Origin: Bacteroidales bacterium
GTDB lineage: Bacteria; Bacteroidota; Bacteroidia; Bacteroidales; VadinHA17
DNA: 64,000 bases
NCBI GenBank assembly: GCA_003142255.1
Contig: PLLO01000019.1
Span: forward strand, 142,971-206,970
Reading direction: 5' to 3'
Made by a program: the position numbers and the translations under genes. Positions 12,774-45,054 of the stretch are shown here, piece by piece (positions within the stretch are counted from its first letter, which is position 1; the number at the start of each line of letters is the position of its first letter). The notes below the pieces were generated by a model. The model was not told where the DNA came from and searched no databases. It saw only the letters and a program-made list of their open reading frames with translations.

Positions 12774-12861
12774 GGAGAGATGCAAGAGTGGTTTAATTGG
12801 CACGCCTGGAAAGCGTGTGTACCTCAAAAGGGTACCGGGGGTTCGAATCCCCCTCTCTCCG
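12774..12861 (+). tRNA. tRNA-Ser (anticodon GGA)
   Basis: An 88-nt class II tRNA with acceptor stem GGAGAGA paired with TCTCTCC. The anticodon arm is CACGC-CTGGAAA-GCGTG, with GGA at positions 34-36 reading UCC. A long variable arm, diagnostic of serine, and a T-arm with GTTCGAATC follow. The base after the acceptor stem is G; CCA is not encoded. The last 22 bases fall inside the 25-bp repeat that recurs at 45030-45054, making this gene the likely integration site of the downstream island. Confidence 0.95.
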
Positions 12862-12864
12862 CAA
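12840..12864 (+). repeat. attL candidate: 3' end of tRNA-Ser
   Basis: Twenty-five bases covering the T-loop to just past the discriminator base. They recur in the same orientation at 45030-45054 with 22 of 25 identities: 8 matching, 3 mismatched, 14 matching. Integration into a tRNA 3' end by a tyrosine recombinase produces exactly this arrangement. Confidence 0.75.
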
Positions 12865-12886
12865 AATTGAAAGCAAATAAAAGCAA

Positions 12887-12926
12887 CGTCCTGTAAAATG
12901 ATTGATTTACAGGGCGTTTTTATTTT
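12887..12926 (+). terminator. Terminator after tRNA-Ser
   Basis: The 11-bp stem CGTCCTGTAAA (12887-12897) pairs with TTTACAGGGCG (12906-12916), with one G-T pair, and is followed by a TTTTTATTTT run. It lies 26 bp after the tRNA and just inside the island edge, so it belongs to the element side of the junction. Confidence 0.8.
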
Positions 12927-13047
12927 ACCACCGTGCAACCTAATGCAGAAAAAAGCATCTCCTCGGTGTCTTATTTGGTGGACATGAATTTTTGAATCCC
13001 AACTCCACCGAATGAATTATAATGCATTGATATGCATTGATTTGCAG

Positions 13048-13078
13048 TTGCAATATTCTTAAGAATATTGTACCTTTA
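13048..13078 (+). promoter_or_regulatory. Integrase promoter with a 20-bp perfect palindrome in its spacer
   Basis: A TTG at 13048-13050 and TACCTTTA at 13071-13078 (one mismatch to TAnnTTTG) are exactly 20 bp apart, normal for Bacteroidota -33/-7 spacing. The entire spacer is a perfect palindrome, CAATATTCTT followed by its reverse complement AAGAATATTG (13051-13070). A dimeric repressor bound there would block the polymerase. The palindrome is certain; its role as operator or recombinase site is inferred. Confidence 0.55.
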
Positions 13079-13108
13079 TAGCGATTTTTTTAACTTAAAT
13101 CGGTGGCG

Positions 13109-14341
13109 ATGAAAACAGAAAAATCAACTTTCAGAATCTTATTCTATTTAAAAAGAACTAAAATCTTGAATAACGGTGAGTTAACGATTTTTATGAGAAT
13201 CACTGTTGACGGTGAAAGAGCTGAGGTTTCAACACATCAAAGCGTTGAACCCCACCTGTGGAATCAGGAAAAAGGAATTGTTAAGGGTCTCTCCAACTCA
13301 TCAAAACAGGTGAACGATTACCTTGAGCACCTCAAACTCAAGGTGTACAGGCATAAAAAAGAACTTGAAAGCGATGACCAGGAGGTTATTGCAAGGACCC
13401 TGGGTGATTTATTGCAGGGTAAAAATTCACGACGAAAAGGACTCGTAGAATTATTCCTGGAACACAATAACCGTTGTAGAGAGCTGGTTGGGAAAGATAT
13501 TGCTCCTGCTACCCTAACCCGGTATGAAACAACCCTGATGCACGTAAAAAACTTTATTCAAACAAAATACCGGCAACAGGACATGCCTTTGCAGAGTGTC
13601 AATCATGAGTTTCTTAAAAATTTTGAACACTATTTAAAGACCGTTCGTAATTGTGGACACAATACAACGGTTAAATACATCCGTAATTTAAGGAAGATCA
13701 TCCGCATGGCTCTTGCCAACGACTGGCTCAAAAAAGATCCGTTCAGGAGTATTACTTACCGTCTTAAGGAGGTTAACCGAGCTTATCTGACAGACCCGGA
13801 ATTAAAATTACTTATCAATAAAGAATTTTCCAACGAACGCTTGAGGCGGGTAAAAGATATATTTCTTTTCTGTTGTTTTACCGGACTGGCTTTCTCGGAT
13901 GTTAAGAACCTGACTAGAGAAAATATAACAATAGGTATTAATAACCAGAAATGGCTAAGAACAAAAAGAAAAAAGACAGGCAATCCAAGTGAAATACCCT
14001 TATTGGATGTACCCACTGCCATTATAAAAAAATATGAGAATGATCCGGTATGTTTACTGGAGCAAAAACTTCTACCAGTTGGTAGTAATCAAAAAATGAA
14101 TGCGTATCTCAAGGAAATTGCTGATTTGTGCGATATCAACAAAAATCTTTCAACACATACTGCCCGGCACACCTTTGCAACAACTGTAACCCTGACCCAT
14201 GGAGTTTCAATGGAAGCTGTTTCCAAAATGCTTGGACATACAAACCTGTTTATGACTCGAAAATATGCCAAAGTCGATGAGCATTATATATCTCAGGAAA
14301 CTATAGGTATAGAAGAAAAACTTAAAAAATCTGTATCATGA
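13109..14341 (+). CDS. Tyrosine recombinase (island integrase)
   Basis: A Bacteroidota-type site-specific integrase. It has an N-terminal arm-binding-like domain (to about residue 90 of the GTG-started form), a SAM-like core-binding domain (about 112-210) and a catalytic domain (about 225-400). Numbered from the possible GTG start at 13103, catalytic residues are H352 and R355 (HTARH), H379 (LGHT) and Y388 (TRKYAKV). The usual first arginine after TGL is replaced by alanine (TGLAFSDV, position 263), as also happens in some conjugative-transposon integrases such as IntDOT, where it is serine. I prefer the ATG at 13109. It sits 247 bp after tRNA-Ser and overlaps the next gene by 4 bp. Confidence 0.92.
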   Translation: MKTEKSTFRILFYLKRTKILNNGELTIFMRITVDGERAEVSTHQSVEPHLWNQEKGIVKGLSNSSKQVNDYLEHLKLKVYRHKKELESDDQEVIARTLGDLLQGKNSRRKGLVELFLEHNNRCRELVGKDIAPATLTRYETTLMHVKNFIQTKYRQQDMPLQSVNHEFLKNFEHYLKTVRNCGHNTTVKYIRNLRKIIRMALANDWLKKDPFRSITYRLKEVNRAYLTDPELKLLINKEFSNERLRRVKDIFLFCCFTGLAFSDVKNLTRENITIGINNQKWLRTKRKKTGNPSEIPLLDVPTAIIKKYENDPVCLLEQKLLPVGSNQKMNAYLKEIADLCDINKNLSTHTARHTFATTVTLTHGVSMEAVSKMLGHTNLFMTRKYAKVDEHYISQETIGIEEKLKKSVS

Positions 14342-43698: not shown

Positions 43699-43825
43699 AA
43701 CCCTAACAAACTAACCTAAACCTATGAAAATCATTTTACCTGTAATTTTATAGTAATATCCATATCTGACCGGGTACACCTATCGGCAAATGGTGAAAAA
43801 TAAAAAATAATTGCTATTTGATTAA

Positions 43826-44410
43826 TTATGAAATAAATAGAATAAAAAATAAAATAACAGGTATATTCTCCATGTTAAGATTGGTCCTGATGAATTTCAG
43901 TGCATCTGTCAATTGATTTTCCACCGTTTTGTGGCTGATCTTCATTTCTTCGGCAATTTCTTTAATACTGTGCCCTTCGAACCTGCTTTTTATGAAGATT
44001 TCTTTTCGTCCCAATGGCAATTGATTTACTAATTCAGTTATATATTGATGCAGTGAATCATAAGTAATTTTCTGAGAAGTTTGCATATCCATATCATCAC
44101 TTATCCCGGTCTTTAAATATTCAGATAAATAAGCTTTGGTTCTGAAATGCTTCCTTATAATGTTGAAGGCAATTGCAAAAAGGAATGATTTAAAAGATAG
44201 TTCCTTTTTCAGGTCTGCCCGTTTCTCCCAGATTATTGTAAAGACCTCCTGGACCAATTCTTCTGCCTCAGGTTCTGATTTTAAATACCCAAATGCAAAA
44301 CGGTACAAACGGCCACTGTATTCTTTAAATAAAGTATTAAACGCCAATAGATTACCTTTTGATAAATTATATACCAGAAGTGACTCATTTTTATTTGTAC
44401 AATCTTCCAT
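43826..44410 (-). CDS. ECF RNA polymerase sigma factor (Bacteroidota expansion family)
   Basis: A 194-residue extracytoplasmic-function sigma-70 factor. Region 2 is at about 15-85 (AFNTLFKEYSGRLYRFAFGY and EAEELVQEVFTIIWEKR). Region 4 is at about 125-175 (GRKEIFIKSRFEGHSIKEIA and HKTVENQLTDALKFIR). The short hydrophobic tail (VILFFILFIS) is common in the Bacteroidota family linked to FecR and SusC. It should direct transcription of the susC operon once released by the FecR protein. It is the most distal regulatory gene and lies 156 bp from the small orphan gene near the island edge. Confidence 0.94.
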   Translation of the reverse strand: MEDCTNKNESLLVYNLSKGNLLAFNTLFKEYSGRLYRFAFGYLKSEPEAEELVQEVFTIIWEKRADLKKELSFKSFLFAIAFNIIRKHFRTKAYLSEYLKTGISDDMDMQTSQKITYDSLHQYITELVNQLPLGRKEIFIKSRFEGHSIKEIAEEMKISHKTVENQLTDALKFIRTNLNMENIPVILFFILFIS

Positions 44411-44565
44411 TTACCAGAATTTTTTCAAATAGCATATTCCGTTTCAACTAATTATAGATGCAAGCTAGTAAATATATGGTTTTATAATAAATCTTCCCCC
44501 ATCATGATCAATTCGTAGTGGAATGACAAATTAAATTATACATTAATTCGGCCAACCTGGAGTTT

Positions 44566-44862
44566 TTAAACGAACCCCTCAATCAAAAATTCTGAACTGC
44601 ACACGGCATGAATTATCATTTTAGCGGAATGGCCTTTTACAATATCAGAATCAGGGGATTTCATTTTTAACCATTTTGCCTCAACAACATAGATAGGTGG
44701 TATTTCTAATCCATTGTTGATAGGCTGAACTTTTACCCTGCCTCCATCAGGGTCTTCAATCAGGATGTAATCAAATTCGTTCTCTCCATCCTGATATTCC
44801 GGCAGGAATCTTACTATGTCATTCTTCTTTAAGGTGTTCATGGTGAATTTAATTATATCCAT
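44566..44862 (-). CDS. Small orphan protein near the island's right edge
   Basis: With the start at 44862 the product is 98 residues (44841, MNTLKKND, is a possible alternative). The promoter box at 44880-44887 rules out the longer frame from 44973. The sequence is strand-rich and soluble, with KKNDIVRFLPEYQDGENEFD, then LIEDPDGGRVKV and IPPIYVVEAKWLKM, looking like a small beta-barrel. I recognise no family. It sits between the sigma factor and the right att-like repeat, a typical place for island accessory genes. Confidence 0.6.
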   Translation of the reverse strand: MDIIKFTMNTLKKNDIVRFLPEYQDGENEFDYILIEDPDGGRVKVQPINNGLEIPPIYVVEAKWLKMKSPDSDIVKGHSAKMIIHAVCSSEFLIEGFV

Positions 44863-44879
44863 TTTGGTTCTCTTTATTA

Positions 44880-44887
44880 CAAAGATA
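44880..44887 (-). promoter_or_regulatory. -7 promoter box for the orphan gene
   Basis: Minus strand reads TATCTTTG, a full match to TAnnTTTG, 18 bp before the chosen ATG at 44862. It decides the start, because the longer open frame would begin upstream of the promoter. Confidence 0.5.
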
Positions 44888-45029
44888 AACTTCATTAAAC
44901 TATTTAAACTTATAAATTGAGATGAACTGATTAAGTTTTTTTTAGTTGCGTCATCCAAGCATATACGTATCAAGGTAATTCATAAAATCTAAGGCAAAGC
45001 ACATACAGGAATACCATGGAGCCGATGAA

Positions 45030-45054
45030 GGTTCGAAATACCCTCTCTCCGCAA
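45030..45054 (+). repeat. attR candidate: displaced copy of tRNA-Ser 3' end
   Basis: This matches 12840-12864 in 22 of 25 positions: GGTTCGAA, then ATA in place of TCC, then the 14 bases CCCTCTCTCCGCAA. Upstream sequence does not resemble the rest of the tRNA, so this is an isolated 3' end, as expected for the far side of a tRNA-targeted insertion. Confidence 0.75.

Follow-up and report, generated by a model that had tools for sequence, protein, structure and literature searches.

Genomic islands that target tRNA genes carry a tyrosine recombinase beside the left attachment site (attL), pointing away from the 3' end of the tRNA gene, and a repeat of that tRNA end on their far side. The 64,000-nt stretch analyzed here (the window), which belongs to a Bacteroidales bacterium (assembly GCA_003142255.1) and is part of a 274-kb contig in a 3.73-Mb genome assembly of 19 contigs, contains at positions 12863-45054 what we judge, with a probability of roughly 0.82, to be a composite genomic island without conjugation genes, integrated at the 3' end of a tRNA-Ser(GGA) gene and carrying a polysaccharide utilization locus (PUL). 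In the portions of PMC8845570 available, the loci with which gut Bacteroides handle porphyran, agarose and lambda-carrageenan belong to integrative conjugative elements (ICEs) or mobilizable plasmids. The same portions describe the majority of the variable regions detected in Bacteroides ovatus and B. xylanisolvens, often PUL bearing, as lacking mobile-DNA functions, and name tRNA-targeting ICEs that later lost their mobile DNA as one possible source of such regions (PMC8845570). For a 245-kb island described elsewhere, the accessible part of the article reports glucide-biosynthesis genes and no tRNA site (PMC6258284).

Ends of the island and its empty sites

The left and right 25-bp core copies, the former lying at the 3' end of the tRNA gene, were identical at 22 of 25 positions across 32 kb, as the initial annotation had counted. 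The runner-up match in positions 12901-64000 (51 kb, both strands) scored 16, and none of 300 dinucleotide shuffles reached the score of the repeat (top score 19, against 22 for the real sequence). Throughout the 3.73-Mb genome, a core pattern with 19 fixed bases and up to three mismatches allowed found five sites: tRNA-Ser(GGA), the copy at 45030, and the 3' ends of the GCT, CGA and TGA tRNA-Ser genes. The objection that the core repeat might be frequent elsewhere in the genome was therefore rejected, as it is rare and four of its five sites are tRNA-Ser genes.

The integrase gene, an intact open reading frame (ORF) with three integrase-type Pfam domains, starts 241 bp past the end of tRNA-Ser(GGA), close to the spacing of about 250 bp first proposed. 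The 240-bp arm between the two shares 91% identity with its counterpart behind tRNA-Ser(CGA) in the congener G001, 91%, from 6 bp past the tRNA, with that behind tRNA-Ser(GCT) on a stretch of another Bacteroidales assembly (L070), and 86% with that behind tRNA-Ser(GGA) in G006; L067 yielded the same values as G006 and is probably the same contig. With the integrase included, DNA identity was 92% over 1376 bp (G001), 84% over 1406 bp (G006) and 92% over the 484 bp available (L070). The presence of one arm on three different tRNA-Ser genes places the left boundary at the tRNA end. Further, 27 of the 38 related integrases fetched sit 218-278 bp behind a tRNA gene, which in 21 of those 27 is a tRNA-Ser gene, and a second end was seen in two of 12 sibling stretches tested: in G412 the tRNA-Ser(TGA) end recurs over 18 bp at 16.0 kb, with hairpin sequence behind it, and in G323 the tRNA-Phe end recurs over 20 bp at 11.1 kb. 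The cargo of G412 (glycosyltransferase, radical SAM, Fic, HipA and TOTE-primase proteins) is unrelated to that of the window. An integrase of this family probably inserted the island. The genome encodes another family member, 44% identical, at a different position (G000 C3:220440-221639), and the close integrase relative at tRNA-Ser(CGA) in G001 (L143 16141-18660) is broken and followed by a DDE transposase ORF.

Relatives without the island at tRNA-Ser(GGA), which the initial annotation had advised looking for, were found in three genomes. Whereas tRNA-Ser(GGA) and tRNA-Arg(CCG) are 37.3 kb apart in the window, 1.1 kb (G015), 3.4 kb (G022) or 3.6 kb (G035) separates them in these genomes. The island-free site lies on a single contig, from the asparaginase gene through leuS, in G022 and G015; in G035, the closest relative found (92% identical at the DNA level across 3.0 kb to the left of the site), the sequence is continuous from tRNA-Ser to leuS, and contigs are broken upstream of the tRNA. 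Positions 45049-45110 match sequence lying 103-107 bp behind tRNA-Ser(GGA) in G022 (84% over 63 columns) and G035 (82% over 49 columns), indicating that the right flank once adjoined this tRNA gene.

The interval behind tRNA-Ser(GGA) varies across 28 congener loci, in three of which less than 400 bp is visible, and is a hot spot in which polysaccharide genes are common. A SusC-, GH2- or GH43-like ORF (GH, glycoside hydrolase) stands behind the tRNA in nine of the 28, with best matches to window proteins at 21-43% identity, and none of these nine has a recognized integrase; a related integrase occurs in two of the 28, G009 and G006. The nine loci would suit an exchange of the locus by homologous recombination between core genes flanking a variable region, a mechanism that the available portions of PMC8845570 put forward for Bacteroides islands, with the integrase an unrelated neighbor and the right repeat due to chance. 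We consider this improbable, because the shuffled sequences never attained the repeat score, and the sequence after the repeat is that which follows tRNA-Ser in the island-free relatives.

The base composition, for which an inside-outside comparison had been advised, also changes at the island. GC content falls from ~0.43 to ~0.37 between 13 and 45 kb, and mean GC at third codon positions (GC3) was 0.331 for the 24 ORFs inside, counting those of at least 100 aa, and 0.424 for 25 ORFs outside (p = 2e-7). Some outside ORFs are low in GC3 too, for instance 49475-50053 at 0.285. All 24 inside ORFs fall within 0.27-0.40, which speaks against an assembly artifact at the repeated tRNA end, as do the recurrence of the left joint in three other genomes and the position of the window within a long contig of an assembly of few pieces. 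Assemblies of G035 and G003 do break at or near this tRNA gene; even so, we hold an artifact to be very improbable.

The proposal of a 32-kb island at tRNA-Ser(GGA) is thus supported by the core repeat, the left arms, the island-free sites, the right flank and the composition. The companion claim that everything outside it is housekeeping failed to the right of 45054, where GNAT, SPFH and GH53 genes are found and the sequence is variable within the genus up to a backbone of orf200, tRNA-Arg and leuS. The GNAT-family gene lies 1.1-11 kb behind tRNA-Ser(GGA) in G001, G024, G010 and G012, and is missing from the site in G035. In G003 (L052 8207-9952) the SPFH gene precedes the GNAT gene, the opposite of the order in the window.

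Composite build and cargo

Behind the integrase, the island appears to have been pieced together. A RimK-like ATP-grasp ORF, whose start overlaps the integrase stop codon both in the window and in G009, is truncated to its N-terminal 118 aa and stops within a 61-codon stretch on the opposite strand. This stretch resembles the start of annotated insertion sequence (IS) transposases of the IS5 family (44%, E 9e-7 by tblastn); its 61-aa translation had no Pfam match. In G009 the ATP-grasp gene is full length (379 aa, RimK domain) and stands at the same tRNA, downstream of an integrase with 47% identity (L059 4022-5161), and in G165 (L146 527-1648) a 42%-identical relative follows, at a distance of ~0.8 kb, an integrase located at tRNA-Ser(CGA), so that a RimK-like ATP-grasp gene accompanies this integrase family in two genera. 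The truncation at the IS5 fragment indicates that the island has been rearranged, and it lies where the integrase module meets the polysaccharide locus. Together with that fragment (compare the broken integrase and DDE transposase of G001), it suggests that the two modules were probably joined by an IS-linked rearrangement, whether in the donor, in place, or via two successive insertions. The earlier idea of a whole polysaccharide locus moving as a tRNA-targeted, non-conjugative island therefore stands as regards the tRNA site and the lack of conjugation genes, with travel as a single unit no more than a possibility.

One version of an island at this tRNA involves tandem accretion, in which (i) an older island, made up of the polysaccharide locus and an integrase of its own, arrived first and left the core at 45030, (ii) an element carrying the present integrase and ATP-grasp gene later entered the same tRNA end, and (iii) an IS-linked deletion removed the remainder of that element along with its right core. 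The truncated gene and IS5 fragment at the joint are consistent with such a history, as are the drift of the right core, set against a left arm that retains 91% identity to that of G001, the other cargo held by this site in congeners without a recognized integrase, and the G009 arrangement, where integrase and full ATP-grasp gene occupy the same tRNA with no polysaccharide locus in the 6.7 kb available. No third core copy was found between 14.7 and 45.0 kb, however, and the GC3 of the integrase (0.365) is closer to the inside than to the outside mean; we regard this sequence of events as possible, if doubtful.

For the composite island as a whole, we envisage that the tyrosine recombinase recombined the attachment site of the element with the final 14-25 bp of the tRNA gene. 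At the left end, the core copy brought in by the element would have kept the tRNA intact, and the displaced host copy would have ended up at 45030-45054, where it would since have drifted by three bases. The cargo is a SusCD-type locus under control of an extracytoplasmic function (ECF) sigma factor and FecR, with GH43, GH51 and GH2 enzymes and a sugar ABC transporter, predicted to serve the use of an arabinose-rich glycan; it was probably joined to the integrase module by the IS-linked rearrangement, before or after integration. Comparison of sequences shows the target, both cores, the left boundary in three further genomes, the island-free sites, the lack of a close congener SusC and the truncation; we infer the event that brought in the polysaccharide locus, the part played by the IS, the substrate and any present mobility.

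Several observations weigh against this reading. The right core has three mismatches to the left one, and although the count of 22/25 was correct, its longest unbroken identity is only 14 bp, CCCTCTCTCCGCAA. The right junction is without ~105 bp that are present in island-free relatives, and the composite structure is compatible with an integrase that belongs to another element. Eleven of the 38 related integrases have no recognized tRNA beside them. In ten of the 12 sibling stretches no second end was found, within 17.6-18.9 kb searched in seven of them and before a contig edge reached within 10 kb in the other three. No SusC or SusD match occurred in 20 sibling integrase stretches, many of which stop a few kb past the integrase. 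Finally, many of the relatives' assemblies are fragmented, and repeats at tRNA genes can be mis-assembled.

The 24 inside ORFs were scanned with Pfam or, for SusC, with NCBIfam. With a SusC/SusD pair, glycoside hydrolases and a regulator, the locus qualifies as a PUL. Judging by its GH43 and GH51 genes, the substrate would be an arabinose-rich glycan; NCBIfam matches to arabinanases and arabinofuranosidases fall under the cut-off. One GH51 gene survives as a fragment and one GH43 gene is broken in two, which points to a polysaccharide locus in decay. The 736-aa protein at 28481-30691, which had no Pfam match and only a marginal NCBIfam match, is possibly an unclassified glycan enzyme, and the orphan 135-aa ORF had no match in the loci fetched besides copies of the window locus. 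No relaxase or mating-pair protein was recognized among these ORFs, and an ICE was rejected on this ground.

We searched 35 congener genomes for the SusC protein (E <= 1e-200, at most 12 candidates per genome), and the sole match among the candidates scored was 36% identical (G010). Vertical inheritance of the locus was rejected, as these congeners, whose assemblies are incomplete, yielded only that relative. A search of 392 other genomes of the order for SusD (E <= 1e-100) returned related proteins in ten; the closest was 59% identical (G296), and no donor of the polysaccharide locus was found among the 392. We read the neighborhoods in nine of these ten genomes (G341 and stretches L184 and L185 were left out). 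Near the related SusCD pair there was a GH43-like relative in eight of the nine and a GH2-type one in five, and the only integrase match was a single ORF in G054, 21% identical to that of the window. Judged from these sequences, the locus type is spread across the order, whereas its position here is not.

Table 1. Features of the island, its flanks and the associated palindromic element (window coordinates unless a genome, contig or stretch is named)
Feature	Coordinates	Strand	Basis
tRNA-Ser(GGA), integration target	12774..12862	+	ARAGORN; Rfam tRNA
attL, left 25-bp core copy, at tRNA 3' end	12840..12864	+	repeat comparison
Integrase-side arm (hairpin and integrase upstream region)	12863..13102	+	arms in G001, L070, G006
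Tyrosine recombinase, intact ORF	13103..14341	+	Pfam Arm-DNA-bind_5, Phage_int_SAM_5, Phage_integrase
RimK-like ATP-grasp gene, N-terminal 118 aa, truncated	14338..14694	+	Rimk_N (Pfam); full copy in G009
IS5-family transposase, 5' fragment	14676..14859	-	translation, 61 codons; tblastn
Zinc-dependent alcohol/polyol-type dehydrogenase	15058..16104	-	Pfam; NCBIfam matches all under cut-off
Sugar ABC transporter permease (16246-17208) and ATPase (17371-18858)	16246..18858	-	Pfam
GH51-type arabinofuranosidase fragment, 175 aa only	18914..19441	-	Pfam ASD1_dom
Two GH43-type genes, left one under Pfam cut-off	19608..21616	-	Pfam; relatives by related SusCD pairs, other families
Periplasmic sugar-binding protein	21739..22779	-	Pfam
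GH43 genes, one (23918-24980) split in two ORFs	22821..26205	-	Pfam, ORF list
Two GH51 arabinofuranosidases flanking 736-aa protein	26335..32227	-	Pfam
GH2, GH2-C-like and BNR-CBM9 proteins	32231..37234	-	Pfam
SusD and SusC	37500..42405	-	Pfam, NCBIfam, relatives
FecR-type anti-sigma factor and ECF sigma factor	42547..44410	-	Pfam
Orphan ORF, 135 aa	44566..44973	-	without Pfam match
attR, right core copy, 22/25	45030..45054	+	repeat comparison
Distal half of tRNA-tailing palindromic element, host sequence; overlaps last bases of core	45049..45110	+	G035/G022 match
GNAT-family gene, first right of island	45303..46088	+	congener positions
Palindrome copies	45049-45110; L061 192-330; G022 C81:26531-26666
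Palindrome copies, own genome	G000 C11:291839-291969, C14:282181-282314, C2:13046-13184, C14:353112-353242, C16:7746-7868

A palindromic element behind tRNA genes of the genus

In this genus, tRNA genes are followed at their 3' ends by a palindromic element of ~130-150 bp, the outer stem of which starts at the last bases of the tRNA. In a 15-sequence alignment, 24 of 29 predicted pairs had changed on both sides, a proportion to be read with the relatedness of many of the sequences and with the prediction of the structure from the same alignment. A model of the palindrome matched 35 of 36 genus genomes (own included) and three of 24 others at E <= 1e-6. Of 36 distinct loci fetched (two reverse-strand duplicates having been dropped), 29 were at a tRNA 3' end, a count biased toward tRNA-Ser tails, from which the model was built. 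The genome itself also has copies behind tRNA-Asp, tRNA-Val and tRNA-Gly, the last a weak match (E 2e-5). ARAGORN found no tRNA alongside those at C7:491703 and C7:568467, and the latter may lie behind a tmRNA. An Rfam search of the window region and seven relatives returned only tRNAs, so the element is not a listed RNA family.

At two loci, L081 (14935-14956) and L082 (2354-2375), the 3' end of tRNA-Ser is partly repeated (17/22) past the palindrome, at distances of 186 and 175 bp from the first copy, a layout resembling an inserted element flanked by target duplications. A short direct repeat in G035, CCGCAAAGC, has one copy at the tRNA end and the other in the distal arm; judging from that sequence, this pair could have guided the ~105-bp deletion that we infer for the right junction of the island. 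We also entertained the idea that the palindrome is (i) a small non-autonomous passenger of the same tRNA-end integrases, or (ii) a structured landing pad, and that such pads, the remnant at 45049-45110 included, make tRNA-Ser genes genus-wide docking sites for swapping polysaccharide loci; we think this unlikely. No report of a tRNA-tailing palindrome in this group was found in the literature searched, which does not prove its absence in print; as an observation, the covarying palindrome at tRNA 3' ends may be newer than the island, which is of a known kind.

Comparison with described systems

The gain and loss of PULs decide which plant fibers Bacteroidales use. The locus described here shows vehicle, target, both ends and the cargo joint, with the same integrase arm on three tRNA-Ser isoacceptors elsewhere, and gives a testable route by which tRNA-targeted integrases could deliver a polysaccharide locus without having conjugation genes of their own. 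The literature searched yielded no description of a Bacteroidales PUL island at tRNA-Ser, which again does not prove that none is in print. The island itself is of an ordinary, known kind; it is well supported, somewhat decayed, and pieced together. Like other tRNA-targeted islands, it has an integrase by the tRNA 3' end, a distal direct repeat, island-free relatives and a deviating composition; unlike them, it has an imperfect right core, an integrase module truncated at an IS5 fragment, and no relaxase or mating-pair gene inside.

The described Bacteroides PULs on ICEs and mobilizable plasmids share with it a whole polysaccharide locus as mobile cargo within the Bacteroidales, as far as the available portions of PMC8845570 describe them. 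In contrast to those systems, the 32 kb here hold no conjugation genes, the cargo is of an arabinose type, and the target is tRNA-Ser. A PUL-bearing variable interval between conserved backbone genes is likewise what those portions report for the variable regions of Bacteroides, from which this locus differs in that its integrase and its two cores can still be recognized. It fits the proposal, made in the same portions of that paper, of tRNA-targeting ICEs that later lost their mobile DNA, in this case with the integrase retained (PMC8845570).

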